The translations under genes and the position numbers were made by a program. A stretch of 23,408 bases of DNA from a virus, in IMG/VR virus record IMGVR_UViG_3300013233_000050, positions 1-23,408 of that record. One strand, 5' to 3'. The notes under the pieces are model-generated. The model did not search any database and had not been told where the DNA came from. It saw only the letters and a program-made list of their open reading frames with translations. Shown in pieces: positions 1-23,408 of the stretch. Each line of letters opens with the position of its first letter. The first letter of the stretch is position 1.

Positions 1-243
1 ATTTTATAGGAAAGTGACTCATCATAACTGAAAAATATTTAAGTGGTTATAATAGAAGGAAACGACTTTATTTTATAGGAAAGTGACTCATCATAACTGA
101 AAAATATTTAAGTGGTTATAATAGAAGGAAACGACTTTAATTTTATAGAAAAGTGACTGATCATAACTGAAAAATATTTAAGTGGTTATAATAGAAGGAA
201 ACCGACTTTATTTTATAGAAGAGTGACTGTCAGAATCAAATTA
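1..243 (+). repeat. Tandem ~69-70 bp repeat array A (cut by window start)
   Basis: Four copies of AGTGACT begin at 13, 82, 152 and 222, so the period is 69-70 bp. Each full unit reads AGTGACT, then CATAACTGAAAAATATTTAAG, TGGTTATAATAGAAGGAAA, CGACTTTA and TTTTATAG. The last unit switches to a second variant (AGTGACTGTCAGAATCAAAT) and ends near 243. The same units occur inverted at 18537-19156 and in this orientation at 23246-23408. Each unit has a conserved TATAAT, but I find no good -35 box 17 bp upstream of it. It is not a CRISPR, because there are no unique spacers. Confidence 0.95.
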
Positions 244-300: not shown

Positions 301-1305
301 ATGGCTTTTCATCATGGCACTATCAGAAAGTACACATTAGCGTTACTTGATTTTTTCAACAATCTTGAGGTTCAATATCAAGACAGCGCGAACGTAACAA
401 TGACAAGGACAGTTCCTGTTGTATATAGTTCGAAGGAGAAGTCTAAGGTAATCGAATCGCACACAGCAGACGCACTAAGGACTGGGAACTACAATGTATT
501 ACCCAGAGCAAATATATCGTTAGTGAATATGAACAAAATTGACCAACGAATCATGAATCGGAACAACAAGATAGGTACGAGTGCAACAGGATCCAAGATG
601 GATTTCATGTTTAACTCAGTACCATATGAATTCGAATATGAACTAACGGTGATGTGTAGAGGTATGAACGAAGCATCTCAAATAGTGGAACAAATAGCAC
701 CTAAATTCAATCCAATTGTTGGTATAGATGTATGGGACGCTCAAAATCTAGATACTCCAACCAGAATACCGATCAAGTTGTTGGATATTTCAATAGAAAA
801 CGAGGATTACGAAGAATACAGTTCAAATATATGTTCTCTTAGTATGGGAATATCTGTTACTGGCAACTTATATTCTCCTATTCAAACCACAGACAGAGTC
901 AAATTTTTCAAGATGTCTATAAATGAGATGAACGGAACGACATTCAACCGTCGTATTATTGACAATTGGGATGTCGGACTTAACACCAATCCTATGGGTG
1001 GGAATCTCACTAATCCGGTGCGTAATCAAATAGGTAGTAATCTTGCTCCAGTCATTATTGACATTGTTCCTAGTACTCCATTAACAATAGGAACAACGTC
1101 AATAACAAGTATATGGACAGATACAAATAATCCGATAACTGAATTGACGTTCAGTTGGGTTTTGTTACAGGGAGTTGGAACAATTGTTCCTAATTTAGAT
1201 AAGTCAACGGTAACAATAACTGCGTCAGGTACTGTTGAAATTCAACTAACTATAACCGATCCATTTGGTGCAAGTGTAACGATGAATAAGATATTCACTG
1301 TTTAA
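301..1305 (+). CDS. 15: gp15-like tail completion / sheath terminator protein with extra C-terminal domain
   Basis: This 334-aa protein resembles gp15 of T4-type phages, the ring that ends the contractile tail and joins it to the neck. The family pattern is visible: an N-terminal YTLALLDFFNNLEVQY helix, then VPVVYSSKEK, LPRANISL and DQRIMNRNNKIG. It continues with the beta-rich VPYEFEYELTVMCRGMNEA and QIVEQIAPKFNP, and ends with an NICSLSMGISVTGNLYSPIQ strand. T4 gp15 has about 270 residues. Here residues ~249-334 add an Ig/PKD-like beta domain (ELTFSWVLLQG, IQLTITDPFGASV). The ATG at 301 has Shine-Dalgarno AGGAGA 5-6 bases upstream. The gene ends convergently with the next gene, the two stop codons overlapping in TTTAA. 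In T4, gene 15 is followed by 16 and 17; here a leftward operon separates it from 17. The assignment rests on remembered family similarity, with no search run. Confidence 0.75.
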   Translation: MAFHHGTIRKYTLALLDFFNNLEVQYQDSANVTMTRTVPVVYSSKEKSKVIESHTADALRTGNYNVLPRANISLVNMNKIDQRIMNRNNKIGTSATGSKMDFMFNSVPYEFEYELTVMCRGMNEASQIVEQIAPKFNPIVGIDVWDAQNLDTPTRIPIKLLDISIENEDYEEYSSNICSLSMGISVTGNLYSPIQTTDRVKFFKMSINEMNGTTFNRRIIDNWDVGLNTNPMGGNLTNPVRNQIGSNLAPVIIDIVPSTPLTIGTTSITSIWTDTNNPITELTFSWVLLQGVGTIVPNLDKSTVTITASGTVEIQLTITDPFGASVTMNKIFTV

Positions 1306-2440: not shown

Positions 2441-2475
2441 TTAATGCCTCTATGAGTATTGTAATACACTATTCA

Positions 2476-2748
2476 TTAACACTCTGAAGTCTTACGTATC
2501 CATTCCTTAACTTCGGGGAGATTGTCTTCATACTTCTCAATAGCCACTATGACTAATTCAATCAGACGATTTTCAGATTCTCCATAAACATCGTGTGTAT
2601 TCTCTAAAAGTGTAGTTATGAACTCCAATGATGTCACATATGTGACATCATCAAGGACCACTTCGTCAGAACTATTAAATAATTGACGAATATCAATCAC
2701 AAACGTCAATCTTGCATTCTTTACAATTGGGTTTATTGTGTTTGTCAC
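2476..2748 (-). CDS. Small acidic protein of unknown function
   Basis: This reading frame of up to 90 aa is continuous with the leftward operon. I do not recognise it. It looks like an alpha/beta protein with an acidic helical C-terminus (ENRLIELVIVAIEKYEDNLP, then EVKEWIRK). The start is uncertain. GTG at 2748 gives 90 aa but overlaps 56 bases of the 52-aa gene upstream and has no clear ribosome-binding site. GTG at 2700 sits on the stop of that gene, would allow translational coupling, and leaves 74 aa starting VIDIRQLF. Confidence 0.6.
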   Translation of the reverse strand: MTNTINPIVKNARLTFVIDIRQLFNSSDEVVLDDVTYVTSLEFITTLLENTHDVYGESENRLIELVIVAIEKYEDNLPEVKEWIRKTSEC

Positions 2749-2851
2749 AATTTGGTTTGCGTCGGACAGTATATAATGACGTGTCTACTGAGGCAACATC
2801 ACCAGCTGTCGTTTCTTCATCAAGGAATTCTCTAAATGATAGTTTATACAT
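2693..2851 (-). CDS. 52-aa protein with capsid-targeting-like leader and Cys/His cluster
   Basis: Translation of 2851 to 2693 gives a 52-aa protein. Its ATG overlaps the stop of the 466-aa gene (TAATG), the same junction type as elsewhere in this operon, which argues that it is a real gene. The N-terminus MYKLSFREFLDEE ends in L-D-E and matches the leader seen on the four genes upstream. The C-terminal half carries C35-x2-H38-x4-C43-x2-C46 plus C51, a possible zinc-binding knuckle, next to basic residues (VRRKPN). It could be a small packaged nucleic-acid-binding protein; that is inference. It overlaps the beginning of the 90-aa reading frame downstream. Confidence 0.6.
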   Translation of the reverse strand: MYKLSFREFLDEETTAGDVASVDTSLYTVRRKPNCDKHNKPNCKECKIDVCD

Positions 2852-8114: not shown

Positions 8115-8150
8115 AATGACCTCCTATACACTGTATTTTTACAATAATAC

Positions 8151-8158
8151 TATTTATA
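8151..8158 (-). promoter_or_regulatory. T4-type late promoter for the leftward operon
   Basis: The minus strand reads TATAAATAGTATTA, a full match to the T4 late -10 box. Transcription would start near 8145, ahead of AGGAGGT at 8125-8119 and TTG at 8114. It faces away from the plus-strand late promoter at 8184-8191, so one 40-bp region feeds both operons. Confidence 0.75.
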
Positions 8159-8183
8159 CTACACGACAGTTTGTTAGGATTCA

Positions 8184-8191
8184 TATAAATA
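8184..8191 (+). promoter_or_regulatory. T4-type late promoter for terminase and fibre genes
   Basis: TATAAATA is an exact T4 late -10 box. Transcription would start about 6 bases beyond it, close to the ATG at 8197, so the terminase message from this promoter would have almost no leader. No other promoter is seen before 14240, so genes 8197-14244 probably depend on it. Confidence 0.65.
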
Positions 8192-8196
8192 ACCAA

Positions 8197-10128
8197 ATGA
8201 TACACGACATCATCACTCCTGAAATCATTAAACAATTGCGAAACGAACCAAAAGAAATCACTGAGATGTTGCTTAGTGTTCTGAGATCTCGTGGAAACAG
8301 TGGCAAACAAATAGCTTTGGATCTTTTAGACTTAGAAAAGGACCATGAAGGTTATTATTTGGATGCTCATGGTAATCGGATGTCATTCAACGGAGACAGG
8401 ACGTTAAAGAAACCGTTTACGGATATGTTGTTGCATGATATACACGAAACAGAATACAAAAAATGTGCTGACGATATACACTATTTTAAAGATAATTTCG
8501 TCAAAATTAAGACACAATCAGGGATAAATTTCCCAGATCTCAGAGAATACCAAAACGAATTCATCGAAATACTACTTCCAGACGAACACGAAAACATTGC
8601 TGGTAAGTGTGGTAGACAATCAGGTAAAACAGTATCGACTGGCATTTACTTAGTGTGGATGTTCATTTTTCATTCAGATATGAACATAGGTATTGTTGGA
8701 AACAAAGGGGCTCAAGCAAAAGAATTCCTACATGTTGTTAAGAATATATTTGTGGAACTACCTATATGGATGACACCAGGATTGAGAGTATGGAATAAGG
8801 GCAGCATTGAAAGCGAACATAATATGAGAATTCTAACGGATGTACCTTGTTCTGATGCATTTCGTGGATACTCAATTAATCTTTTGGTTGTGGATGAAGC
8901 CGGGTTTATTCCTAGTACACGATGGAACGAATTCATCGATTCTATTATGCCGTCACAATCAGCTCTAGCTTGGAAGAAGAACATCGTTATTTCAACTATG
9001 AATGGTATGAATCATTGGTACGATATAACCAACGGAGCTAGTAAAAAGCACACTTTTAGTGTTGATGTTGACACTATTGTTGATGGTTTATGTGTCAATG
9101 ATATTACTGATTGTAGTGGATTATTGTATAAGGAGGAACCTATATATAGTGTGGAAGAAACGACTGACGGATATACTATCACCACTACTATTGGTTCAAA
9201 TGGTTTTGTGTTATATGAATTAGATTGGACTAGAGTTCCACGGTATAATTCCAAGGGTAGATTATTGACACCAGATGAGTTCAGGGATGGGGTTGTGGAG
9301 AAATATGGCGAAATGTATTTCAATCAGAACTATGCAAACGAAGCGTTAGGTAGTTCCAATACACTTATATCATCCAAACGACTTAAAGAATTCACCGTTG
9401 CACCCATACAAGAAATGATGGACGGCAAACTCAAAATATACAAATATCCTGAGAAAGGTCATCAATACATTATGACTGTTGACGCAGCAAAGGACGGAAT
9501 TGATGCGTTTGCTGTTCAGATTATAGACATAACTGACTTCAACTTTGAACAAGTTGCTGCAGCGAAACTACAAATAGATTATTTAAGAATGCCTGAATTC
9601 TTATATGAATGGTGTGAGTTATATAATATGCCATATTTAATCATTGAAAATAATGAGGGCGCTGGTCAATCAGTTGCCGACCAAATGTACCAAACATACG
9701 AATACGAAAATATTCATTTTGACACCAAAACAGATTCTCATTCCAAAAATAGTGTCAAATCAAGGAAACCTTACCCAGGATTCAGAACAACATCCAAAAC
9801 AAGACGACAAATTCTTCAAACTATGAAGTTATTTGTAGAGAATGATAAACTAAAGATAAATGATCAATCCACTATATCTGAATTCTTTCAATTCATTTTG
9901 ATAAATAATAAGTTCCAGGCTGATTCAGGGGCTCATGATGATATGATAATGTCGTTGAGCATGGCATTTGTGCCGTTTTGTAACACCAGAAACTTCAATG
10001 ATATGAAGGTTTTAATTAAGAACTTGTATACAGAAGTTGATGAGTCAGAAAGAGTGAATCTTGGTGAACTATTAACAATTGGGTCGTTTGACGATTTCAC
10101 TGACGAATCGTTCCTTCACGACATTTAA
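8197..10128 (+). CDS. 17: Terminase large subunit, gp17-like (ATPase and nuclease)
   Basis: This is the motor that pumps DNA into the prohead and cuts the concatemer. From the ATG at 8197 it has 643 aa, against 610 in T4 gp17. The ATPase has Walker A GRQSGKT at 139-145 and Walker B LLVVDEAGF with D233-E234. It has the family's GIVGNKGAQA, TPGLRVWNKGSIE and STMNGMNHWYDI, each closely parallel to T4 gp17. The C-terminal RNase H-like nuclease has D429 (TVDAAKDG), E484/E487 (IENNEGAG) and D581-D582 (AHDDMIMS). The frame stays open to an ATG at 8116, which would add 27 residues overlapping the leftward promoter and the phosphoesterase start; T4 length and promoter position favour 8197. No clear Shine-Dalgarno is seen at either. 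No gene 16 (small subunit) is in the window. Confidence 0.95.
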   Translation: MIHDIITPEIIKQLRNEPKEITEMLLSVLRSRGNSGKQIALDLLDLEKDHEGYYLDAHGNRMSFNGDRTLKKPFTDMLLHDIHETEYKKCADDIHYFKDNFVKIKTQSGINFPDLREYQNEFIEILLPDEHENIAGKCGRQSGKTVSTGIYLVWMFIFHSDMNIGIVGNKGAQAKEFLHVVKNIFVELPIWMTPGLRVWNKGSIESEHNMRILTDVPCSDAFRGYSINLLVVDEAGFIPSTRWNEFIDSIMPSQSALAWKKNIVISTMNGMNHWYDITNGASKKHTFSVDVDTIVDGLCVNDITDCSGLLYKEEPIYSVEETTDGYTITTTIGSNGFVLYELDWTRVPRYNSKGRLLTPDEFRDGVVEKYGEMYFNQNYANEALGSSNTLISSKRLKEFTVAPIQEMMDGKLKIYKYPEKGHQYIMTVDAAKDGIDAFAVQIIDITDFNFEQVAAAKLQIDYLRMPEFLYEWCELYNMPYLIIENNEGAGQSVADQMYQTYEYENIHFDTKTDSHSKNSVKSRKPYPGFRTTSKTRRQILQTMKLFVENDKLKINDQSTISEFFQFILINNKFQADSGAHDDMIMSLSMAFVPFCNTRNFNDMKVLIKNLYTEVDESERVNLGELLTIGSFDDFTDESFLHDI

Positions 10129-10513: not shown

Positions 10514-10684
10514 ATGTTTGTATTGAATCTACAACTCGTGGGTTCCGAAGGCAGTCCTGACACATACGAATTACGTGGTGTCGATGTCGCAGAATTAGTG
10601 TACGTGACACCAGAAAAATACGAAAATGTAGTAGTGTCTGATTTAGTCACCACTAACGTTGTTATAACGGAGCCAGTCAGATAA
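10514..10684 (+). CDS. 56-aa small protein between fibre-region genes
   Basis: An ATG at 10514 follows the previous stop by two bases and opens a 56-aa frame. Its stop TAA overlaps the ATG of the collagen-like fibre (TAATG at 10682-10686). It reads [16 protein letters not shown] and then short beta-like stretches ([24 protein letters not shown]). The tight spacing on both sides and the lack of another frame here support a real gene. I recognise no family; it may be a small structural or attachment protein. Confidence 0.65.
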
Positions 10685-13149
10685 TGCCAGTACTATTAAC
10701 AACAACGCCAACAGCCAACATTCTAACCATATATGATCAGAATTCAACTGTAACACCATCTGCGACCGTAGTAAATATATCTACTGTTGAAACAGTCAAT
10801 CAACTATCGACCAATTCGAATAGTGTAGAAATTGTACACGAATATATTCAAGGACCTCCTGGAATAGCCGGTGCGTCAGTAGTCAACACTAATATAGACA
10901 CAAATGGTCACTTGATCATAACTATGTCTGACGGAACTAACGTCAATGTCGGTGTTGTTACTGGAACAATCATAACCAATACCCAAGTTGATGTAAACGG
11001 TCACTTGTTGATAAGTTTCTCCGATGGAACAACTTCAGACGTTGGTTTGGTGGTTGGTCCTATTGGATCGACAGGAGCTACTGGCGCAATTGGTCCTATT
11101 GGATTAACAGGAACGACAGGTGCGGTTGGTCCTATTGGATTAACAGGAGCTACTGGCGCAATTGGTCCTATTGGATTAACAGGAGCGACAGGTGCAACAG
11201 GTGCAATTGGATCTACTGGATTAACAGGTGCAACAGGTGCAATTGGTCCTACTGGATTAACAGGAGCAACAGGTGCAATTGGTCCTACTGGATTAACAGG
11301 AGCAACAGGTGCAATTGGTCCTATTGGATTAACAGGTACGACAGGTGCAATTGGTCCTATTGGATTAACAGGAGCTACTGGAACAATTGGTCCTATTGGA
11401 TTAACAGGAGCAACAGGTGCAATTGGTCCTATTGGATTAACAGGAGCTACTGGATTAACAGGTGCTACAGGAGCTACTGGTGTTGCTGGTCCTATTGGAT
11501 TGACAGGATTAACAGGTGCAATTGGAGTGTCTGTAGTAGGATCGACAATCGATTTGTCGAACCACCTCATTATGAGTATGTCTGACGGAACTACTGTGGA
11601 CGCGGGGGTCATAAGTGGATCATCAACGTCAAACGCAGCTGGATCTATATTTATAACCAACGTCACACCAGTCCAAAATGGCAATGTTGGATTCAAGGTT
11701 TTTGACCAAACAACTGTGCCATCCAACATAGTATTGAGAGAGGTATTGACAGACTCCAATTTAGTTAGAGTGAGTATAATATTGATTGGCGGTGACACTT
11801 CCATATATACTCCATCAGCTACTGTAGATGGTGTAGCAGTAAACAATCTCACGGAAGATGGAGCAACGAAGAGATACTACACTGGTTATGTCGATGTACC
11901 CATTTCTCAAACTAGAACGATTATTGCTGATAATTTAAGTGGATCGACTGCGTCAGTATTAGTGAAGATGGCTCCACCTGGTCCTCAAATCCAATCAATT
12001 TCTATTGGTGCGTATCCTACTGGACAAACAGAATTGAAACTTAATGACACAATAACTGCTACCATTGTGGTTGATAATTCAGCCACACAGGCAGTAGTAC
12101 TGATCGGAGGAGCAAACTCAACACATTCGTCATTCACAATGCAAGGAAACGACACTGCTGGAGTAGGATATAAACAAGGAATCGCTCTGATAAGTATAAA
12201 CTCATTGAATGGTCCTCAAACAATCCAAGCTCAAGCTAGTAATTCACTAGCTACAACAGGAAATACCATCACGTCAGCACCACTAATGTTAAATCAAACA
12301 ATTCCGTCCATCACTGTTAACTCGTTGACGTTTCCTGTAGGACAATCAGCGTTAAAAAATAGTGAAATGTGTGTTGTAGATACAACCATAACGAATTATG
12401 ACACGGTGTCCTATAATTCTTCAAATTGTTCTATTTTGAATAATACAATATTCGGACAAACTAAGAACTTTGTTAGGGTATCTGGAACTTACGTCAATTC
12501 AGGCACAAATTGTAGCATAACAGCCACTAAACTATCGAATGGAGCCACATCCACTAATACATTCTTGATTCCGATTGTTAATGTAAGTCCGACTGCTAAC
12601 ATACAAATAGCTGGGAATCCTACATCATTAGTATCGTCTCCTATTGGCGTTGATTATTCAGTTGTAGTAGTTCCTGATCAAGTAATAACTGGTCAACCGA
12701 CATTATCTGCATCCATAGGCACATTCATTGGAACATGGGCTAATAACGCATCGTTACTAAGGATATCAGACGGATCACTCAAGGGAGTGGGTACATTCTC
12801 AGGATTATCTATTGTTGGTTTGTCTGGATTGATTGGAACAACCATTACCTCTGGTAGTTCTTACAATGTATCTGGGTTCACATCTCGAACTATTACAATG
12901 TCACCATTTTCACAACTTGCTCCATTAGGAACAACCGTAACTAATGCAGCTAAGGTACGAGCCAATTACACTGGTGGGTCAGTGTTGACATATCAAACAT
13001 CGACGGCTTCAGTATCTAAGGGATTTACTATTGTAGATTCATTGGGCAACTTCAATCCATCAGGAGATCATTTTTGGTTAAGTGATTCAGCATTCGCTGG
13101 AAGTAACACATCCGGCACACTTCAAATAGATATTCAGGAAATAGTATAA
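10684..13149 (+). CDS. Collagen-like tail fibre protein
   Basis: This 821-aa protein has a fibre layout. Residues 1-124 are an N-terminal beta region with two copies of a NGHL-I-SDGT-VG motif (68-90 and 98-121). Residues 125-281 are about 52 uninterrupted Gly-x-y triplets built from [12 protein letters not shown], a collagen-like triple helix with Thr or Ala instead of Pro in the third place. A third copy of the motif ([17 protein letters not shown]) follows, and then several Ig-like or beta domains to residue 821. Collagen-like stretches are common in phage fibres and act as trimeric shafts. The C-terminal half would carry the receptor contact or further domains. Its start overlaps the previous stop and its end overlaps the next start, both as TAATG. 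Confidence 0.85.
11056..11526 (+). repeat. DNA repeat encoding the Gly-x-y collagen-like shaft
   Basis: The coding DNA repeats in units of 18 and 36 bp, with GGTCCTATTGGATTAACAGG and GCAACAGGTGCAATT recurring with few changes. Such an array can change length by slippage or recombination and so change the shaft length. The open frame seen on the opposite strand here is only a shadow of it. Confidence 0.9.
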
Positions 13150-13677: not shown

Positions 13678-14244
13678 GTGGCACTGGGACTTTTTCAAAC
13701 TGCTGGCGGTATATCTGACGGTTCAGTTTATACTTTATCTGGAGTTGGTACTCCTGGTGGAGATGCTGGAGAACAAGATAACGCTAACGTTGGGTCAACT
13801 TACAGAAATACAGTTGATGGTTCGTTGTGGCAAAAAACCGTAGCTGGTACACTCAAATCGAATTGGATCAGACAAGCAACTTTATCTGACATATCATCAC
13901 TACAATCTCCAATAAAACGATTTTCTTCTATTGGATTTGGTGGTGGAGTAATTGATTCAATTCCTATTAATACAGTAGAATGTGTTAAATGGATAATAAA
14001 TGTCACCAATGCATTAACTAATGACAAATACTCCTTGGAGATGTTGTCCGTTCACAACGCTAGTTCGACTTCTGATGCTACTTTATCAAATAATTCTGTT
14101 GCGTTTGAGGTATCCATGGGAGCAGTGATTCCTGGATTGATAATAACTACATCATTGAGTGGTGTTGGCGTGGGACAAAATATAAACCTGTATATCACTA
14201 GCACAGTAACTACAGACGTTAAATTCGTTAGAATCGAGATATAA
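13678..14244 (+). CDS. Short fibre paralogue, N- and C-modules as in the 625-aa fibre
   Basis: This 188-aa protein is a compact relative of the 625-aa fibre at 15727. The N-termini align without gaps over 22 residues from the GTG (MALGLFQTAGGISDGSVY versus MANVIFKSSQGFADANVQ), which decides this start. Both continue with SG-PGG-D-A-VGS-N-G-K-W. The C-termini also match: VIDSIPINTVECVKW, then SLEML-H and GLIITTSLSGVGVGQ, ending in VKFVRIEI, against VVDSI, EAVKW, GLGITVALAGTGAAQ and IRVTRIAI. The central repeats of the larger protein are absent. It is probably a trimeric fibre or decoration protein. Its start lacks a good Shine-Dalgarno and follows a seven-codon frame. Confidence 0.75.
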   Translation: MALGLFQTAGGISDGSVYTLSGVGTPGGDAGEQDNANVGSTYRNTVDGSLWQKTVAGTLKSNWIRQATLSDISSLQSPIKRFSSIGFGGGVIDSIPINTVECVKWIINVTNALTNDKYSLEMLSVHNASSTSDATLSNNSVAFEVSMGAVIPGLIITTSLSGVGVGQNINLYITSTVTTDVKFVRIEI

Positions 14245-15726: not shown

Positions 15727-17604
15727 ATGGCTAATGTTATTTTTAAATCATCACAAGGTTTCGCTGATGCGAACGTACAGTATATTTCTGGCGCGTTTGT
15801 ACCTGGTGGTACTGGTGGTGCTGACGATCTTGCTCCTATCGGATCTTTATTTGCAAACTCATTGACTGGTGTTAAATATACCAAGATTGGTGCTGCAAAT
15901 GTTGCTGGTGATTGGGACGTATTGTCAATGGGAGCAGATACTGCTGCCGTACAAACAAGTGTAAACACTTTAAGTACATCTTTGACTGCTGAAATTGCAA
16001 ACCGTAATGCTGCTGTTGCTAGTGAAGCATCTGCTCGTACTGCTGCTGACGCAACAATTCAAGCTGAAGTTGACGCTATTGAAGTTGGAGCTGGTTTAAG
16101 TGTTGCTGGTGCGTATGTACCTGATGCTGCATCAAGCTACATCGCAACTGCTACAAGTATTCATAATGCTACTCAGTTGTTAGACGTTCAATTGGCTTCA
16201 ACTGAACTTAAAGCAACAACTAATGCTGCTGCAATCGTTAACTTGAGTGCAAACTCAACAACTGGCACAACAACATTGACTAACTCAGTCGCTGCTGTTC
16301 AAGCTGAATTGGACTTGGTTGAAGCTGGTGCTGGTTTGAGTATCACAGGTACTTACGTTCCTGATGCTGCTGCTCATTACATCGCTGCTGCGACAACTAT
16401 CCATAACGCAACTCAATTGTTGGACGCTCAATTGTTCGCAACTGACGCTGTAGCTACTGCTGCAATTCCAACTGTTGAAAAAGGCGCTGTAAATGGCGTT
16501 GCAACATTGGATGCATCTGGTCTATTGATCACTTCACAATTGCCACCATTGGCTATTTCAACAACAGTTCTTGTTGCTGATCAACCTGGTATGTTGGCTC
16601 TTGTTGCTCAGTCTGGTGACGTTGCTGTACGTACTGATATCAACAAAACATTCATCCATAATGGTGGTACTGCTGGTACTGTTGCTGATTGGACTGAATT
16701 ATTGACTCCAACTGATCCTGCAATGGCTGCTGAATTGAATGCTGTTGAAGCTGGCGCTGGTTTGTCAACTATTGGTGCATATGTTGCTAATGCTGCAGCT
16801 AACTACATCAGTGGTGCTGTATCATTGTATGACGCTGAAACATTGTTGGACGCTCAAGTTGCCTTGAACGCTGCTAACATTGCAACAGTTACTTCAACTT
16901 CTAATGCTAATGCTGCATCTGTTTCAACTGAAGCAACTGCTCGTGCTGCTGCTGATGCATCTATCCAAGCTGAAGTTGATGCAATCGAAGCTAGTTCTGG
17001 TTTGAGTGTTGCTGGTGCATATGTACCTGATACTGCTGCAAGTTATATTGCTGGCGCTGTTTCATTGCATAATGCTACACAATTGTTGGATGCTCAAGCT
17101 GCAACTTCTGCTGCTGCTGAAGCAACTGCTACTGCTGCTAATGATGCTGCTCATATCACTATGAACGCAATCATGGGTAATGGTACTTATTCAAGTACTG
17201 TTAACTACTTGCAAGCTGATGATCTTACTGTTGCTGTATCTAAATTGGATGCTGCTGTATCTAATGTTATGAGTACTGCTAGCGTATTGAATGTAACTGC
17301 AAGTGTTGTTGATTCAATCGTTACTAAATCTGATGAAGCTGTTAAATGGAGTGTTTCTGTACGTGATACAGCTACCCCATCTATCTGTTCAATGTTAGAA
17401 ATCTTCGCTGGTCATGATGGTGATAGTGTTAATGACGCTGTTAATCATGATTGGACTGAATATGCTGAACTTGACTTGAATGGCGGAATTACTGGTTTGG
17501 GTATTACTGTTGCTCTTGCTGGCACTGGTGCTGCACAGGTTATGGAATTGTCTGTATCAGCTACTGCTGCTGTAGATATTCGTGTAACTCGTATCGCAAT
17601 CTGA
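15727..17604 (+). CDS. Abundant repeat-rich tail fibre protein
   Basis: This 625-aa fibre has four parts: an attachment-like N-module (1-70, GAFVPGGTGGADD, IGSLFANS), an Ala-rich coiled-coil-like stretch (EIANRNAAVASEASARTAAD), four copies of AE-DA-E-GAGLS-GAYV-A-YI-A-HNATQLLDAQ, and a C-module shared with the 188-aa paralogue. Between repeats 2 and 3 is LVADQPGMLALVAQSGDVAV then DWTELLTP, a segment seen in many phage fibres. Arg codons are nearly all CGT, and Ala, Val and Thr are dominated by GCT, GTT and ACT. The neighbours use AGA and ATA freely. This points to very high expression. AGAGGAAAACAAAATG gives a good ribosome-binding site. It has its own late promoter and a strong terminator. 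Confidence 0.85.
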   Translation: MANVIFKSSQGFADANVQYISGAFVPGGTGGADDLAPIGSLFANSLTGVKYTKIGAANVAGDWDVLSMGADTAAVQTSVNTLSTSLTAEIANRNAAVASEASARTAADATIQAEVDAIEVGAGLSVAGAYVPDAASSYIATATSIHNATQLLDVQLASTELKATTNAAAIVNLSANSTTGTTTLTNSVAAVQAELDLVEAGAGLSITGTYVPDAAAHYIAAATTIHNATQLLDAQLFATDAVATAAIPTVEKGAVNGVATLDASGLLITSQLPPLAISTTVLVADQPGMLALVAQSGDVAVRTDINKTFIHNGGTAGTVADWTELLTPTDPAMAAELNAVEAGAGLSTIGAYVANAAANYISGAVSLYDAETLLDAQVALNAANIATVTSTSNANAASVSTEATARAAADASIQAEVDAIEASSGLSVAGAYVPDTAASYIAGAVSLHNATQLLDAQAATSAAAEATATAANDAAHITMNAIMGNGTYSSTVNYLQADDLTVAVSKLDAAVSNVMSTASVLNVTASVVDSIVTKSDEAVKWSVSVRDTATPSICSMLEIFAGHDGDSVNDAVNHDWTEYAELDLNGGITGLGITVALAGTGAAQVMELSVSATAAVDIRVTRIAI

Positions 17605-17655: not shown

Positions 17656-18261
17656 TTGTCACAATCAACTATAGATAGAACCTTTTCAACTAAGAATGGG
17701 ATAACTGTTAAATTGGGCAACAAAGAAGCGTTTTCCCTGTATGGTGGTGACGTACTTCCTACCATATTTGATAAACACGACAAAGTAGCCATTTCATCAC
17801 TATACGTTCACACTAATGGCGAAATGTATCAGAAAACATCTTCGCGAACGTGGAGAATGTTTCAAACTGATCCAACATCTAAACAATCATCCGATGATCT
17901 GATTAATGCTAGAAAAAGATTGTTGGAGTATACTCTTAATAGAACAAATGACTTTTATTTTTCGGTATTAATTAAAACAGTCAACATTACATTCCACTCA
18001 GATGACCAATTCAGAACTAGGTTGTCACTACTATATAATATGTCTCAAACATCACCAACATCTAAACATAAAGTGTTGTGTGAGAATCCTGTCAATAATG
18101 AACAATCGTTTATGACGTTCGATGGTGATGAAATATTTGCTATCGCTACTGTTGAACATAATGTGAGAAATTCACTTATCACAGAATATGAATCCACTTA
18201 TACTAATCTGTCAACCATGAAGGATTTTGAACTACGCAATATACATAATGGGTCACAATAA
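17656..18261 (+). CDS. Fibre-associated protein with DUF4376-like C-terminal half
   Basis: This 201-aa protein starts at TTG (17656), with AAGGAG 5 bases upstream. Its first 70 residues (YGGDVLPTIFDKHDKVAIS, then LYVHTNGEMYQKTSSRTW) match the attachment-like N-module of the 188-aa and 625-aa fibres, in which a GG-P-D-IGS-N-G-YxK-W pattern recurs. The second half (INARKRLLEYTLN, ITFHSDDQFRTRLSLLY, EQSFMTFDGDEIFAIATVEH) resembles DUF4376, a small domain often at the end of tail-fibre and fibre-assembly proteins: FxSDxxSRxRI, then a Trp/Phe loop and a D-x-hxAh-xAV helix. The DUF4376 call is by pattern. It is downstream of the strong terminator and has no visible promoter, so it may rely on read-through. 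Confidence 0.7.
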   Translation: MSQSTIDRTFSTKNGITVKLGNKEAFSLYGGDVLPTIFDKHDKVAISSLYVHTNGEMYQKTSSRTWRMFQTDPTSKQSSDDLINARKRLLEYTLNRTNDFYFSVLIKTVNITFHSDDQFRTRLSLLYNMSQTSPTSKHKVLCENPVNNEQSFMTFDGDEIFAIATVEHNVRNSLITEYESTYTNLSTMKDFELRNIHNGSQ

Positions 18262-18536
18262 TGTCAAAGCAACAACCATTACGACTATGCCACCGTCTTT
18301 GGTTACCTTGTTAGCGAACTCTAAACCAGTTACTAATACAACCATACACGGACCACATAATCATGATTCGTTCCGACCAGTGTTCACCACGAGTGGTTCA
18401 ATTCAACGAACGAAGAATAACATTTACCACTAATGGTCACCTTGTTCTGATATCTGCAGACAAACAATTAGCATTTATATTAAAAGAAACGTATGTGTCC
18501 ACCAAGTTACTATCAATCGATGCGTTGGGAATATAA
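18248..18536 (+). pseudogene. Frameshifted fragment of a fibre gene, homologous to the GH16 fibre N-terminal region
   Basis: One frame from ATG 18248 (or TTG 18227) reads through MPPSLVTLLANSKPV and HGPHNHDSFRPVFTTSGS and stops at 18431-18433. The frame one base further on, entered near 18398, gives FNERRITFTTNGHLVLISAD, then QLAFILKETYVSTKLL and DALGI, stopping at 18536. Joined, these match residues ~76-168 of the GH16 fibre at 21714-23186 (GIHTHDIFRDVLTRQGS, NNRRLVFSALSQSGKIVF, AVVIKDVYVSTTDL, VDGYIVG). The homology runs to the stop codon, where repeat array B begins, so the gene looks cut off by the array. It is most likely a relic of an exchanged fibre; a programmed +1 shift is less likely but possible. 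Confidence 0.7.
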
Positions 18537-19156
18537 TTCAGTTATGATCAGTCACTTTCCTATAAAATAAAGTCGTTTTTCTTCTATTATAACTACTTAA
18601 ATATTTTTCAGTTATGATCAGTCACTTTTCTATAAAATTAAAGTCGTTTCTTTCTATTATATCTACTTAAATTAATTTGATTCTGACAGTCACTTTTCTA
18701 TAAAATAAAGTCGTTTTCTTTCTATTATATCTACTTAAATATTTTTCAGTTATGACATTCACTTTTCTATAAATTAAAGTCGTTTCCTTCTATTATAACC
18801 ACTTAAATATAATTTGATTCTGACAGTCACTCTTCTATGAAATAAAGTCGTTTCCTTCTAATATAACCACTTAAATATAATTTGATTCTGACAGTCACTC
18901 TTATATAAATTAAAGTCGTTTCCTTCTATTATATCTACTTAAATTAATTTGATTCTGACAGTCACTTTTCTATAAATTAAAGTCGTTTCCTTCTATTATA
19001 TCTACTTAAATTAATTTGATTCTGACAGTCACTTTTCTATAAATTAAAGTCGTTTCTTTCTATTATATCTACTTAAATATTTTTCAGTTATGATCAGTCA
19101 CTTTTCTATAAAATTAAAGTCGTTTCTTTCTATTATATCTACTTAAATATTTTTCA
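18537..19156 (-). repeat. Tandem 67-70 bp repeat array B, nine units, inverted relative to A and C
   Basis: AGTCACT (ATTCACT in one unit) recurs at 18550, 18620, 18688, 18757, 18825, 18893, 18960, 19027 and 19096. Two unit types alternate: type I with TTTTTCAGTTATGATCAGTC and type II with TTTGATTCTGACAGTC. One unit (18757) is a hybrid. Type II reads as TTGATT, 16 bases, TATAAA on the plus strand, a fair sigma70 promoter. TATAAT is kept on the other strand. No gene lies in this 620-bp stretch. It separates convergent operons and forms an inverted pair with array C around the accessory cassette. Confidence 0.95.
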
Positions 19157-19173
19157 TATATCCACACAAACAA

Positions 19174-19195
19174 GTCCGTCGATTGCTCGACAGAC
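19174..19195 (-). terminator. Probable terminator of the leftward accessory cassette
   Basis: The minus strand reads GTCTGTCGA, GCAA, TCGACGGAC, a 9-bp stem with one G-U pair and a GNRA tetraloop, followed by TTGTTTGTG. It lies 30 bases after the stop of the 89-aa gene. The T tract is interrupted, so its strength is uncertain. Confidence 0.65.
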
Positions 19196-19224
19196 TATTG
19201 CATTACCGTATTGACTGATTACAC

Positions 19225-19494
19225 TCAGTCTATTTGTTTGTATTCCATACACTTGTAAAACGTTTGAGAACAACCATTGGCTGCCGCATTATTAACCGCT
19301 TTGTTCAGAGCAGTTTCCAAACTAGCTGATGTTTTTGGGTTGACGTTGATTTTCTTATTACCACGTTCGTGTTGATACGATGCACCAACATCAAGAGTGT
19401 ATTTGTACATGTCTACTAATTCCTTGATGGTAGATGGATCTGATTGAGTGGTCCGACCGTTGCGTCTACTAACTACAATATACTGTTTAGCCAT
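19225..19494 (-). CDS. Small conserved phage protein of unknown function
   Basis: This 89-aa basic protein reads MAKQYIVVSRRNGRTTQ, then ELVDMYKYTLDVGASYQHER, GNKKINVNPKT and ETALNKAVNNAAANGC. I recall similar small proteins with YTLE-G-SY-HE-GNKKIN-NPKT and a NNAAANG helix from T4-type phages, with no known role. AAGGAG is 10 bases before the ATG. It has its own sigma70-type promoter, nearly identical to that of the 119-aa gene, so it is probably expressed early. A hairpin terminator follows. Confidence 0.75.
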   Translation of the reverse strand: MAKQYIVVSRRNGRTTQSDPSTIKELVDMYKYTLDVGASYQHERGNKKINVNPKTSASLETALNKAVNNAAANGCSQTFYKCMEYKQID

Positions 19495-19518
19495 AATAAA
19501 TCTCCTTCTGATATGGGA

Positions 19519-19547
19519 AGTCTACACTAAAACTAATCAAAGGTCAA
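19519..19547 (-). promoter_or_regulatory. Sigma70-type early promoter, copy 1
   Basis: On the minus strand TTGACC, 17 bases, TAGACT. The -35 box lies over the end of the 265-aa frame. A stretch of about 30 bases including spacer and -10 is almost identical to the promoter at 20746-20718, so one copy arose from the other. Used by the host polymerase, it would make the downstream gene early. Confidence 0.75.
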
Positions 19548-20329
19548 CAGAATTGTTCAGGATAATTAATCATTAATTGTCGGAATTTATCGGAAAAGTT
19601 ATAAATACTAAACCACTCGTAATCGATATCTGCTAAGTTGACACAACCTTCGAACATTCTATCTATGTCTTCCGATACGTTGAATAACGGAATAGTAGTT
19701 AATGAGATACATTCACGAAACATACATAACGAGTATTTAACTTCTGACATATCTAATAACGGAATAGTTGTTAGTGATGTGCAATAATTAAACATCCAAT
19801 TCGTATTGTCCACTTTTGACGTATCTAACAACGGAATAGTAGTTAATGACGAACAACAATTAAACATCAAACTCATATCAGTCACTTTTGATGTATTCAA
19901 TAGTGGAATAGTTTTCAGAGACCTACAATCGTCAAACATGTTATTTGTACACCAAACTTCTGACATATCCAATAATGGAATAGTGGTTAAGGTCGTACAT
20001 TCTGTGAACATGAAACTCATATCAGTTACTTTTGATGTATTCAAGAGTGGAATGGTTTTCAGAGACCTACAATTATCGAACATATGAATCATATCAGTAA
20101 CATTTGATGTATTCAAGAGTGGAATGGTTTTCAGAGACCTACAATTGTCAAACATATGAATCATATCAGTAACATTTGATGTATCCAATAAAGGAATAGT
20201 AGTCAATGATGTGCAATCATAGAACATGAACCTCATATCAGTTATGCTAGAATAATCATATTGTTTTAGTTCTTTGTCACTTATTCCGTGTAATATTAAG
20301 TCACGCAGTTCCTCTTTTGAGTGACACAC
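19544..20329 (-). CDS. BspA-like leucine-rich repeat protein (DUF285 type)
   Basis: The protein has about nine 24-residue repeats of the form DTSNVTDM-MF-C-SLTTIPLL, the BspA/DUF285 type of leucine-rich repeat. These form curved solenoids for binding proteins or surfaces. No signal peptide is seen, so it probably stays in the infected cell. Two consecutive repeats are almost identical at DNA level. The C-terminal cap is CVNLADIDYEWFSIYNFSD. I place the start at GTG 20329, because VCHSKEELRDLILHG then aligns without gaps with MVITKNEFLSLILHG of the 119-aa paralogue upstream. TTG at 20341 is in frame and gives 265 aa. The GTG lies four bases after the stop of the paralogue, which fits reinitiation. 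It is read with it from the early promoter at 20746-20718. Confidence 0.85.
   Translation of the reverse strand: MCHSKEELRDLILHGISDKELKQYDYSSITDMRFMFYDCTSLTTIPLLDTSNVTDMIHMFDNCRSLKTIPLLNTSNVTDMIHMFDNCRSLKTIPLLNTSKVTDMSFMFTECTTLTTIPLLDMSEVWCTNNMFDDCRSLKTIPLLNTSKVTDMSLMFNCCSSLTTIPLLDTSKVDNTNWMFNYCTSLTTIPLLDMSEVKYSLCMFRECISLTTIPLFNVSEDIDRMFEGCVNLADIDYEWFSIYNFSDKFRQLMINYPEQFC
20032..20175 (-). repeat. Near-identical 72-bp tandem duplication in the BspA-like gene
   Basis: Two successive 72-bp units (TCAAGAGTGG begins at 20041 and again at 20113) differ at only a few positions, while the other repeats of the gene have diverged more. This indicates a recent gain of one 24-residue repeat. Confidence 0.85.
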
Positions 20330-20333
20330 AATC

Positions 20334-20693
20334 TTACACAAAATATTCAGGACAGTTGGATCTTAGTGTAGAAAACGACGTATCGAAATCATACACGCAC
20401 ATCCAACAATAGTCTATTTCCGACAGATTTACACAACCACTAAACGTATTATTCGTTACATTTGATGTATTCAACAATAGGGTAGACTTTAATGACGTAC
20501 AACGAGTAAACATATAACTCATATCAGTTACATTAGAAGTATCAAAAAAGGAATAGTAGTCAATGACGAACAACCATAGAACATAGAACATATGGTTCAT
20601 GTCTGTTATGCTCGAATAATCATATTGTTCGAGTTCTTTGGTGCTTATTCCGTGTAATATTAAACTAAGAAATTCGTTCTTTGTTATGACCAT
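20334..20693 (-). CDS. Short BspA-like paralogue with compensating frameshifts
   Basis: This 119-aa protein is a short relative of the gene that follows it. It has the same cap (NEFLSLILHGISTKELEQYD), SSITDMNHMFY, FDTSNVTDMSYMF, CTSLKSTLLLNTSNVT, and the same C-terminal cap (GCVNLSEIDYCW). Between MFY and FDTSNV it reads VLWLFVIDYYSF, where the family has DCSSLTTIPLLD. The DNA explains this. A 7-base duplication (CATAGAA twice on the plus strand, 20575-20588) shifts the frame, and one missing base near 20543-20549 restores it. In the shifted segment the other frame still reads GCSSLTTIPF. The protein has two extra residues and lacks a normal repeat there. ATG 20693 has GGAAGGAGAT ahead of it. 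Confidence 0.75.
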   Translation of the reverse strand: MVITKNEFLSLILHGISTKELEQYDYSSITDMNHMFYVLWLFVIDYYSFFDTSNVTDMSYMFTRCTSLKSTLLLNTSNVTNNTFSGCVNLSEIDYCWMCVYDFDTSFSTLRSNCPEYFV

Positions 20694-20717
20694 GTCATAT
20701 CTCCTTCCAACACAGGA

Positions 20718-20746
20718 AGTCTACACTAAAACTAATCAGAAGTCAA
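20718..20746 (-). promoter_or_regulatory. Sigma70-type early promoter, copy 2
   Basis: On the minus strand TTGACT, 17 bases (ending TTTTAGTG), TAGACT, with GAAGGAGA close to the ATG at 20693. Sequence and spacing are nearly the same as the promoter at 19547-19519. It begins four bases after the stop of the nuclease gene, so it separates early from late genes. Confidence 0.75.
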
Positions 20747-20749
20747 CGG

Positions 20750-21403
20750 TTATTTCAAGAACTTACAATTCACTCTGTGAGATTCTAACGTGTCACCACG
20801 AGAACTCTTGATTTTGTCGTTTTTGTAATAATAACATTCGTCGATATCTTTATTATATATTCTTTTCCAAAATGCCACTGGATAAGCCAAACCTATTTTA
20901 CCGATTCGTTTGGGGTTTGGTCCATACACAACACCATTCACAACATTAACGACTTTGTATTGTTTGGCTAAATATCGTTCCCTACGTTCTGCCTTGATCC
21001 ACGTTCGTCTGTTAATTACTTTGTATTGAGGGATAATATTAGCCATTGAATAAACAGAATGCAATGAATCGCGGGACCAATCAAACGATGCATCAGGTGC
21101 TAAATGACCTCTGTCTGCATGGAATGCGTTATGAGTATAATCTTTCGATTTGGTTCTGTATTGTTTAGGAATGGATCTGTCAGAATAAAACCCAGGTCTC
21201 TTCTTAATGTTGATGAGATCCATGTTATATCCATGTAAAGTATAAGTGACGTATTTAGCGCCCTTGTAGTTATAGTCGAAACATATCTTATAATACGTTT
21301 TATCCAATATCTGATCACAATTAACAGAGTTCATGGGATTGGAGTATGCAACAGTCGACAAACACAATAACATCACAATAAACATGGATCTCATCATAAT
21401 CAT
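20750..21403 (-). CDS. Secreted DNA/RNA non-specific endonuclease (beta-beta-alpha metal type)
   Basis: This 217-aa protein has a signal peptide (residues 1-21, MFIVMLLCLSTVAYS, cut probably before NPMN). Next comes the non-specific nuclease core: D97-R-G-H100 (HADRGHLAPDASF), then MANIIPQYKVINRRTWIKAE. H100 would be the general base, N131 the magnesium ligand, and E139 with R143 complete the N-x-W-x-E-x-R pattern. Family members (Serratia nuclease, NucA-like, EndA) degrade DNA and RNA outside the cytoplasm. It would be exported to the periplasm or medium, perhaps to degrade extracellular DNA or biofilm, or to handle incoming DNA of rivals. Its start overlaps the stop of the 96-aa gene (ATGA), so it is late. 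ATG at codon 4 is an alternative start. Confidence 0.88.
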   Translation of the reverse strand: MIMMRSMFIVMLLCLSTVAYSNPMNSVNCDQILDKTYYKICFDYNYKGAKYVTYTLHGYNMDLINIKKRPGFYSDRSIPKQYRTKSKDYTHNAFHADRGHLAPDASFDWSRDSLHSVYSMANIIPQYKVINRRTWIKAERRERYLAKQYKVVNVVNGVVYGPNPKRIGKIGLAYPVAFWKRIYNKDIDECYYYKNDKIKSSRGDTLESHRVNCKFLK

Positions 21404-21690
21404 AGTGGTTTCATGTCGTATGTTCTAGACACACCAATACGCGGATTGCCATTCGGACCTTCGTTTTCAGCTAATAAATCCAAACATTCCATTGAACCAA
21501 TCTGCAAGTCACGAACGTTCGTTAGATATTCGATGATTCCGATGTTGTTTTGGAAAACCATTCTAGCTTCTTCAGATTGATCGTGTACAATCTTTTTATT
21601 TTTGTCTAAAATTTCCAACATCAGTTGACTAACCAAGACATCCAACTTGTGTCCTGTTGGGTTTTCTGCACTCATTAAGATGGGTTTCAT
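21400..21690 (-). CDS. Small conserved protein of unknown function
   Basis: This 96-aa protein starts MKPILMSAENPTGHKLDVLV, then long helices (QLMLEILDKNKKIVHDQS, GIIEYLTNVRDLQIGSMECL). The MKPI-x-S-x-NPTG-x-KL opening recalls small hypothetical proteins of T4-type phages; no function is known to me. AGGAGATTAA precedes its ATG, and a late promoter (21718-21711) lies just upstream. The nuclease gene overlaps its stop, so the two are co-expressed late. Confidence 0.7.
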   Translation of the reverse strand: MKPILMSAENPTGHKLDVLVSQLMLEILDKNKKIVHDQSEEARMVFQNNIGIIEYLTNVRDLQIGSMECLDLLAENEGPNGNPRIGVSRTYDMKPL

Positions 21691-21710
21691 TTAATCTCCT
21701 TTTATTATTA

Positions 21711-21718
21711 TATTTATA
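21711..21718 (-). promoter_or_regulatory. T4-type late promoter for the 96-aa protein and nuclease
   Basis: The minus strand has an exact TATAAATA. It includes the stop codon of the GH16 fibre gene (TTA TAA). RNA would start near 21705, with AGGAG and ATG 21690 following. Confidence 0.75.
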
Positions 21719-23186
21719 AGATGGATTTCGTCATAGCGTTTCTATTATAAGATAAATTATAATCTAATCCACCAACTACTTTAGTTGCTTGATATATCGT
21801 GTCGAATGATAGTTTATTTGTTGGTACATAAATAACGTGTTCAGTTGTTGGTATGTTTAATAACGAAAAGACTTCACCACACGCTGAATTTGAATCAGAA
21901 TCGAACCACGCGTCATTAACGGTTTCTACTTCATACGTATCTTGAGATACTCCGACATAACTACACGAATCTATTGAAAATGTCAATGGTGTTGTATACG
22001 TAAACGGTCCTGACCACGCATCCACACCAGTCGTCGCCCATAGATTAAGGAACAAATTCATCGGTTTATTTGGAATTGAAGTCGTGACAGTGTGTACAAC
22101 TACACCATCAATTAACCACTTAATGCTGTTCGGTAACCACTCTATAGTGTATGTGTGGAACGCCAATGACGCATCAAATCCCAAATTAATCAATACTTCG
22201 TGTCCACCAATGCCGTTGTGGAAATAGTTTAGTTGAACTGTAGTTGTGTCTTTTCCCAAGAATTCGATATCAATTTCGTCGTGACTAGTTGTTCCGAATA
22301 CACCAGTGTACATGAATACACCATTAACTACACCTGAACCTTTAGTCGGTTTAACTGAAAATGTGGAAGTACCGTACGATAATGGTTTATTGGTTTTGTA
22401 TTCACCACTAGCGTATGGTTGATTTGAACAAGCCGATGAACCAACTGAACACAATGGGTTATTATCTAATGTAATATTCAACAACCCATTGGTAAAACTA
22501 ACGTGGTCAGAACGCCATCCAACTTGGAATGGATTACCGTTACTCCATCCGTCCGATTTGGTCCACATCGCTGAGTTAGGACCATTAAACGGAAAAGCGA
22601 ATGATACCATATTAGATTTAATTCTAATGATCATTGCGTCCTTACCTAAACCATTGAAAAGATTGAACATATCAGAACCAACAATATATCCGTCAACTTC
22701 TAAACCTAAATCGGTTGTGGATACATAAACATCTTTAATGACCACAGCTATATTTCTATCAGGTGTCATAAAAACTATTTTTCCAGATTGGGATAACGCG
22801 GAGAATACAAGTCTTCTATTATTTGATTGCGATGTATCTGACCCTTGTCTTGTTAAAACATCTCTAAATATATCGTGAGTGTGAATGCCAGATATTGTTG
22901 TTGAATTGTTTTTTGATTTCGTTGAATTATATTCTGTTAATTCTGACGGTGTCATACCAACTATTGTTTTATTCAACAAGTTTGTTATCTTTGTCTTGTG
23001 ATTGATTAGTTCGTTATTATCGTAAATATCATCATTCAACACACCTTCGGATTGTTTGAATCCTGACAATGTGGAAGTGTGAACATAATCTAAGAATGAA
23101 ACAACTTCAGATAAAAATTCATTCTTCTCCCTCTCGGATTTAGCTGCGGTCGTTTCGTTAGTTATGGTTCTTACAGTAAATGACAT
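21714..23186 (-). CDS. Tail fibre/adhesin with GH16 licheninase (beta-1,3-1,4-glucanase) domain
   Basis: This 490-aa protein joins a phage N-terminal region to a glycosidase. Residues 1-100 are helical (KSEREKNEFLSEVVSFLDYV). Residues ~95-170 match the broken fibre fragment at 18248-18536. Residues ~197-412 are a GH16 domain very like bacterial lichenases: MWTKSDGWSNGNPFQVGWRS, HDEIDIEFLGKDTTTVQLNY and GGHEVLINLGFDAS. Then come HTYTIEWLPNSIKWLIDGVV and NLWATTGVDAWSG. The catalytic E304-I-D306-I-E308 is intact (nucleophile E304, acid/base E308). Residues 413-490 are a C-terminal region I do not recognise. There is no signal peptide. It probably sits on the virion and cuts mixed-linkage or related glucans on the host surface. 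ATG 23186 has GAGGT upstream and its own late promoter. Confidence 0.9.
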   Translation of the reverse strand: MSFTVRTITNETTAAKSEREKNEFLSEVVSFLDYVHTSTLSGFKQSEGVLNDDIYDNNELINHKTKITNLLNKTIVGMTPSELTEYNSTKSKNNSTTISGIHTHDIFRDVLTRQGSDTSQSNNRRLVFSALSQSGKIVFMTPDRNIAVVIKDVYVSTTDLGLEVDGYIVGSDMFNLFNGLGKDAMIIRIKSNMVSFAFPFNGPNSAMWTKSDGWSNGNPFQVGWRSDHVSFTNGLLNITLDNNPLCSVGSSACSNQPYASGEYKTNKPLSYGTSTFSVKPTKGSGVVNGVFMYTGVFGTTSHDEIDIEFLGKDTTTVQLNYFHNGIGGHEVLINLGFDASLAFHTYTIEWLPNSIKWLIDGVVVHTVTTSIPNKPMNLFLNLWATTGVDAWSGPFTYTTPLTFSIDSCSYVGVSQDTYEVETVNDAWFDSDSNSACGEVFSLLNIPTTEHVIYVPTNKLSFDTIYQATKVVGGLDYNLSYNRNAMTKSIL

Positions 23187-23203
23187 GGTGTGTACCTCGA
23201 CGA

Positions 23204-23211
23204 TATTTATA
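23204..23211 (-). promoter_or_regulatory. T4-type late promoter for the GH16 fibre
   Basis: The minus strand has an exact TATAAATA, 17 bases ahead of the ATG at 23186, with GAGGT between them. Late timing fits a virion protein. Array C begins about 35 bases further upstream. Confidence 0.75.
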
Positions 23212-23245
23212 TGAACACATTAATTACGGATTATATATGAATAAA

Positions 23246-23408
23246 ACGACTTTATTTTATAGAACAGTGACCGATCATAACTGAAAAATATTTAAGTAGA
23301 TATAATAGAAGGAAACGACTTTAATTTATAGAAGAGTGACTGTCATAACTGAAAAATATTTAAGTGGTTATATTAGAAGGAAACGACTTTATTTTATAGA
23401 AGAGTGAC
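23246..23408 (+). repeat. Tandem ~68-69 bp repeat array C (cut by window end)
   Basis: AGTGAC recurs at 23266, 23335 and 23403, with TTTAAGTAGATATAATAGAA or a close variant and GGAAACGACTTTA between. The orientation is that of array A and opposite to array B. The unit at 23335 is a hybrid, with TGTCA of type II joined to TAACTG of type I. The array runs on beyond the window. Confidence 0.95.

Follow-up and report, generated by a model that had tools for sequence, protein, structure and literature searches.

The closest described counterparts of the arrays reported here are the repeat regions (RR1-RR4) of the Campylobacter group II phages CP220, CPt10, CP21 and IBB_35 (Firehammervirus). Repeats of ~75 bp, most of them extragenic, occupy ten loci in CP220 and eight in CPt10 (PMC2853527). 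PCR on a single-plaque population gave ladders in six of seven repeat regions, and the CP220 authors proposed the repeats as recombination substrates and named three repeat-bordered gene sets (PMC2853527); a later test on CP21 did not reproduce the ladders (PMC4546147). The repeat regions of CP21, four in number, are bipartite; their arms are direct or inverted, their units measure mostly 72-86 bp, and they have a 13-bp core. Compared with CP220, CP21 has its modules B and C in inverted orientation, and the five-contig assembly of IBB_35 has been attributed to repeats (PMC4546147). Here we analyze the metagenome virus record IMGVR_UViG_3300013233_000050, a stretch of 23,408 bases (hereafter the window), in which two arrays of a 68-70 bp unit, B and C, enclose as inverted repeats a cassette of six minus-strand genes, including that of a fibre-type protein with a GH16 domain, and in which a fragment of a related fibre gene abuts array B. 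The original prediction, made from the letters of the window, had read this arrangement as a candidate adhesin-switching locus. We find it probable instead that B and C are passive recombination substrates at module borders and that the fragment is the relic of a lost fibre paralogue.

Two other kinds of system bear on this reading. The PeSL of Arbiol et al. 2010 are reportedly mobile regulatory cassettes of T4-type phages, each a single early-promoter-plus-stem-loop element, and are said to have been proposed as mediators of modular shuffling. The arrays described here resemble them in being intergenic, repeated and placed at module borders in genomes of the T4 type. However, the unit lacks a stem-loop and a clear −35 element and is organized in long tandem arrays, and the early promoters of this phage adjoin the arrays rather than lying inside the units. 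In the Mu gin/G segment and P1 cin switches, an invertase acting on short recombinase sites splices alternative C termini onto a shared N terminus. As in those switches, a fibre gene is flanked by inverted repeats in the window, but the repeats are long tandem arrays outside the GH16 gene, the promoter lies within the segment, and no invertase was recognized among the scanned proteins.

The presence of a gp15-like tail sheath stabilizer and a large terminase (TerL) in the window places it, on gene content, in a large phage of the T4 superfamily. Its TerL is 42% identical to that of the CP220 group, 57% to those of Vibrio phages pv27, phiTY18 and phiKT1024, and 59% to that of an array-free relative of 205,555 bases (G004). 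An exact 20-mer of the unit core matched three further contigs, all from metagenome 3300013233 (G001, IMGVR_UViG_3300013233_000184; G002, _000165; G003, _000142), and no other IMG/VR contig; blastn of the unit against 50,697 phage records also returned no match. The four contigs probably represent one phage. Together they hold at least ten array segments: A, B and C in the window, 1a, 1b and 1c in G001, 2a and 2b in G002, and 3a and 3b in G003. These correspond to about eight loci, with A and 2a probably forming one array. Both ends of the window fall within arrays (A at the start, C at the end) and several contigs start or stop inside arrays, as is typical of assemblers meeting repeats; the arrays thus account for where the assembly breaks.

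Tandem Repeats Finder and a repeat finder show that A, B and C are all built from one 68-70 bp unit. Array B was detected at 18549-19148 (period 68, 8.8 copies, score 856), with its first base on the fragment side at ~18535-18540, and array C at 23244-23408 (period 68, 2.4 copies). Their inverted relationship is far above chance, the arms extending to 133 nt (85% complementary) and to 119 nt (93%); in this respect the original prediction was borne out. Across the ten segments the units measure 62-71 bp, and the 52 full units are assembled from interchangeable sub-variants. For 26 of the 52, the nearest neighbour lies in the unit's own array, compared with 6 expected, which points to homogenization within arrays together with exchange between some of them. 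Conservation is concentrated in the unit core, AACGACTTT..TTTATAG..AAGTGAC, and TATAAT is kept in nearly all units. B and C are not a favoured pair: they share a fraction of 0.040 of their 40-mers, a middle rank among the 45 array pairs (A-2a is first at 0.281), and at k=30 they rank eighth (0.254). Their longest exact match is 44 bp. The 3′ ends (in unit orientation) of arrays B, 1a, 1b and 3a lie at nearly one phase, just after ..TCATAACTGAA, while the 5′ ends are scattered; A and 1c, judged by eye, have a similar 3′ phase. The possibility that A and C are two ends of a single circular array was rejected, because synteny with G004 sets the topoisomerase end of G002 beside gp15; moreover, A is closest to 2a, and A and C share almost no 30-mers.

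The fragment beside array B is, from its sequence, a relic of a fibre-family member truncated at both ends, as indicated by a frameshift, the lack of residues 1-68 and an end at the array. The GH16 protein aligns to 18260-18421 through residues 69-123 (44% identity) and, in the next frame, to ~18399-18530 through residues 120-166 (34%), and a two-sequence profile of the fibre N-terminal domain (N-domain) recovers 18254-18421 (E=4e-8) and 18393-18554 (E=2e-5). The homology starts where the preceding open reading frame terminates (stop codon, 18261) and ends no more than ~10 bp from array B. The original prediction had matched the fragment to GH16 residues ~76-168, which is right within a few residues, and its claims that the homology stops where array B starts and that the 5′ end of the GH16 gene lies beside array C stand to within ~10 bp and at a distance of ~54-58 bp from the start codon (23186), respectively. 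Unseen at that stage were the frameshift and missing N terminus of the fragment, array A, the contig ends within arrays, and the unit on three more contigs. An identity of ~40% is too low for the fragment to have been copied recently from the GH16 gene.

The N-domain recurs in a G001 protein, F542 (28858-30486; 36% identity over 191 residues), and in a gene truncated at the left border of G001 (1-380), whose nucleotide identity to F542 is 93% across the 5′ part and leader. In all, four copies are known, and they lie 54 (GH16), 288 (F542), 220 (left-end gene) and 0 bp (fragment) from an array. Of the 106 genes, about 15 lie that near an array, giving a chance of ~3e-4 for four of four. In scans that were pattern based and detect moderately close relatives only, G001 was the sole source of matches to the N-domain; none was found in IMG/VR, GenBank phages, GTDB genomes or nine relatives. 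This adjacency of all four copies to arrays is the single new lead of the analysis. The N-domain proteins would be virion fibres, judging from their late promoters and the company of their genes. The duplicated 5′ part of F542 with its leader (G001 1-454 versus 30107-30561) lies beside array 1a.

The GH16 domain (PF00722, E=1.3e-39) matches Bacillus-type lichenases, the β-1,3-1,4-glucanases (PDB 1byh), over residues 195-410 with E ~1e-55 and retains the ExDxE catalytic motif as HDEIDIEF. Unlike in the lichenases, the domain is inserted in a phage fibre-type scaffold common to F542, which also has the scaffold piece 419-475. Because the two scaffold pieces that flank the domain are contiguous in F542, domain gain within the gene, and not at an array, belongs to the history of the family. 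An AlphaFold model of the GH16 fibre had a mean pLDDT of 34 and was discarded.

Comparison with G004 bears on what the arrays may have done to gene order elsewhere in the genome. No arrays are present in G004, in Vibrio phage pv27 or in the scanned part of Va1 (194,001 of 194,900 bases). Over the four contigs, 57 of 58 genes with a G004 homologue share a single relative orientation in each contig, and their order departs from that of G004 only for two genes with distant paralogous matches and one inverted neck gene. The position of array 3a corresponds to a 59-bp gap in G004 (35255-35314) flanked by the portal gene and a neck gene, and array 1b, an 80-residue gene and F542 together occupy a 344-bp G004 gap that has the ribonucleotide reductase gene on one side and the next conserved gene on the other. 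By the same synteny the contigs would be ordered G003, reversed G002 and window, so that 2a and A would face each other in the interval from the topoisomerase gene to gp15. This near-perfect collinearity indicates that the arrays, where this can be tested, came to lie between genes and left the orientation of the adjoining DNA as it was. Since G004 holds no homologues of the sequences flanking B and C, the comparison says nothing about the interval between them. The inverted neck-protein gene (G003 12112-12840) has no arrays at its borders.

Collectively, these observations are consistent with the following course of events. B and C would be two of a genome-wide set of extragenic 68-70 bp arrays that lie between transcription units, at module borders, and whose copy number and unit make-up alter through unequal exchange or slippage. 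As long stretches of near-identical DNA in a heavily recombining type of phage, the arrays may occasionally permit the gain, loss or exchange of modules. The 19.2-23.2 kb cassette (a nuclease, two leucine-rich repeat proteins, the GH16 fibre and two small genes) would be one such accessory module, and the fragment the decayed remainder of another fibre-family member, formerly the last gene of the plus-strand tail operon, that was truncated where array B begins. Recombination at the arrays may have brought in the cassette and truncated the old fibre gene, and the arrays at B and C would, by analogy, mark recombination-prone module borders. The closest viral relative of the cassette nuclease (56%) is encoded in a contig stretch without arrays.

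The Campylobacter phages provide the precedent for this mechanism. In both groups, arrays of extragenic units of ~70-97 bp lie at about ten loci, have bipartite arms in direct or inverted orientation, some of them around small gene sets, and show polymorphism of units within and between arrays; the phages belong to the T4 superfamily, have related TerL proteins, and yield assemblies that break at arrays. Indeed, in the annotated CP220 record, arrays 3c and 4c (minus), four genes and array 5 (plus) follow the same plan of inverted arms plus cassette as B, six genes and C. However, there are differences. The unit sequences are unrelated, the lineage of the window phage is apparently distinct, with its closest TerL in Vibrio phages, and here all copies of one fibre N-domain family are found at arrays; module inversion has been documented in Firehammervirus and not in the window phage. 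The 13-bp Firehammervirus core, AAACTTAAAGCAA, is absent from the 52-unit alignment, and blastn of array B against the CP220 genome gave matches of 19-31 bp only, none in CP220 arrays. An array upstream of gp15 in CP220, as in the window phage, was ruled out, as the CP220 gp15 homologue is at 156085 and not beside repeat 9. Thus, the arrays would work like the Campylobacter group II repeat regions without being of that repeat family.

Several points weigh against passive module borders. Arrays 3a and A/2a adjoin conserved core genes on both sides and no accessory gene. Recombination at B and C is deduced from anatomy, as the assembled contigs, for which reads were unavailable, reveal neither an intermediate nor an empty site nor another junction, and the units, unrelated at the blastn level, give no support to descent from a repeat shared with the Campylobacter phages. 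In addition, the assignment of the four contigs to one phage and their order would both follow from synteny, and the adjacency statistic for the fibre copies is post hoc, with two of the four being recent duplicates.

The arrays that lie between core genes only suggest a function in cis beyond mere module traffic, and it is possible, though we do not favour it, that the arrays are primarily cis-acting sites (tandem promoters, sites of replication or packaging, or binding sites for a phage protein) and that recombination is a by-product. The conserved unit core with its TATAAT would fit such a role, as would the siting of the arrays in the intervals that separate transcription units, frequently with an early (TTGACC-N17-TAGACT) or late (TATAAATA) promoter directly adjoining. 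Moreover, 8 of the 10 segments, all but B and 2b, point the same way on the G004 gene-order axis, a hand-derived count that is not significant. However, relative to neighbouring genes the arrays take all orientations, with none consistent, and the distance from TATAAT to a −35-like hexamer differs by unit variant. Sigma-70-like sites in the region number 33, versus 30.8 in shuffled sequence, no RNA structure was found in the unit, and Rfam gave no match in the window or in two of the three sister contigs (L022, L024). On the shuffle-level counts and unfixed spacing, the specific proposal of one sigma-70 promoter per unit was rejected.

A further alternative, which we consider unlikely, is that the fragment is an independently duplicated fibre gene that decayed and that its contact with array B is coincidental. 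The 5′ part of the fragment is also missing, at a place where no array lies, and the identities of 44% and 34% to the GH16 protein imply a divergence long ago, which counts for coincidence. Against this, the homology ends next to the array, and the other three copies of the family also stand beside arrays.

Adhesin switching, in which repeated inversion between B and C flips or swaps the GH16 fibre module and leaves the fragment as a scar, now appears very improbable. Inverted arms of ~100 bp and 85-94% identity do exist, fibre genes cluster at arrays, and the CP21 modules inverted relative to CP220 are a published case of inversion between isolates. The arrangement of promoters, however, does not suit a switch. 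The T4-type late promoter TATAAATA occurs 34 times in the four contigs, compared with 11.2 expected, and 23 of the 34 sites lie within 250 bp upstream of a gene on the same strand. It precedes the start codons of GH16, F542 and the left-end fibre gene by 25, 32 and 34 bp, respectively, nearer than any upstream array. Because the GH16 promoter lies inside the would-be invertible segment, a flip would alter neither this promoter nor the reading frame. As originally predicted, inversion would set the GH16 gene on the plus strand, with its start at ~19219, but its promoter and terminator would move with it, and the fragment would stay behind array B, unfused; no reading frame would be altered, and there is no partner open reading frame for a fusion. 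As built, a B × C inversion would therefore be a poor on/off or fusion switch. In addition, B and C show no special similarity to each other, gene order agrees otherwise with that of the array-free relative, and no recombinase or invertase was recognized among the scanned proteins of the window and array flanks, a set that does not include every open reading frame of an incomplete genome. Of the original proposal, the arrays as recombination substrates remain plausible on the Campylobacter group II precedent (PMC2853527, PMC4546147), accessory genes are indeed bordered by them, and the fragment does derive from a member of the GH16 protein's fibre family; the specific B × C flip or swap, and a scar left by such switching, are not upheld.

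An assembly artefact, in which array B joins regions that are not neighbours and the order fragment-array-cassette is false, is comparably improbable: this is a metagenome contig, assemblers err at repeats and both contig ends break in arrays, but the nine units of B carry many private variants, a proper array end lies beside the fragment, and the longest exact matches of B, 56 bp to any other array and 86 bp internally, are such that long k-mers could resolve it.

The features of the window are collected in the table.

Table. Arrays, genes and signals of the window, in positions of the 23,408-base stretch
Feature	Position	Strand	Remarks
Array A	1..243	+	3.3 units of 68-70 bp; upstream of gp15; cut by contig start
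gp15-like tail sheath stabilizer	301..1305	+	first gene 3′ of array A
Large terminase	8116-10128		TerL
Last intact open reading frame of tail/fibre operon	17656..18261	+	fragment starts at its stop codon
Fibre N-domain pseudogene fragment	18254..18536	+	residues ~70-166; frameshift near 18400-18421; truncated at both ends; abuts array B
Array B	18530..19165	-	~9 units of 68-70 bp
Terminator-like hairpin	19173..19196	-	ends cassette operon; adjoins array B
89-residue cassette protein	19225..19494	-	no family found
DUF285/BspA-type leucine-rich repeat protein	19544..20341	-	
Short DUF285/BspA-type leucine-rich repeat protein	20334..20693	-	
DNA/RNA non-specific endonuclease	20750..21403	-	PF01223, phrog_14168
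96-residue cassette protein	21400..21690	-	phrog_26726 (unknown function); TATAAATA upstream
Fibre-type GH16 protein, 490 residues	21714..23186	-	N-domain 1-188, GH16 195-410, scaffold piece 419-475
T4-type late promoter TATAAATA	23204..23211	-	25 bp upstream of GH16 start; within would-be invertible segment
Array C	23244..23408	+	2.4 units; cut by contig end

Within the cassette, an early-promoter-like block, TTGACC-N17-TAGACT, with conserved surroundings precedes the leucine-rich repeat genes (19519-19547 and 20718-20746), and the same block adjoins arrays 1c, 2a and 3b (G001 34649, G002 867-1146 and G003 19398). Elsewhere in the window, an 821-residue protein (10684-13149) has a collagen-like Gly-X-Y tract, with 36-bp repeats at 11054-11447. 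Proteins of 188 (13678-14244) and 625 residues (15727-17604) have N- and C-terminal domains in common, and the N terminus of the 201-residue protein encoded by the last intact frame of the operon resembles them on visual inspection; consecutive tail proteins may have a single adaptor as their common base. In the sister contigs, the genes for the topoisomerase large subunit (G002 1332-3502) and ribonucleotide reductase (G001 24785-28062) are apparently split by intein-like pieces, and the CP220 reductase gene likewise has an annotated intein. The first 1,940 bases of G003 (1-1940) are strongly repetitive, probably coding, and run off the contig.

The repeat-region layout of Campylobacter group II phages is thus also found in another T4-superfamily phage, with an unrelated unit. 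The unrelated unit and the lack of arrays in the nearest relatives suggest that array-partitioned genomes were gained independently. The array-free, collinear relative permits a direct look at the effects of arrays on gene order and gene gain. A more far-reaching view, which we offer as speculation and think rather doubtful, is that the phage keeps an array-guided adhesin arsenal, in which several paralogous fibre modules, GH16 among them, share an N-domain scaffold and are each parked at a dispersed array. If so, recombination between arrays would duplicate, relocate and exchange fibre modules, both inside one genome and among the genomes of co-infecting phages. The association of arrays with fibre paralogues is a lead on how phages build diversity in receptor-binding proteins or depolymerases.

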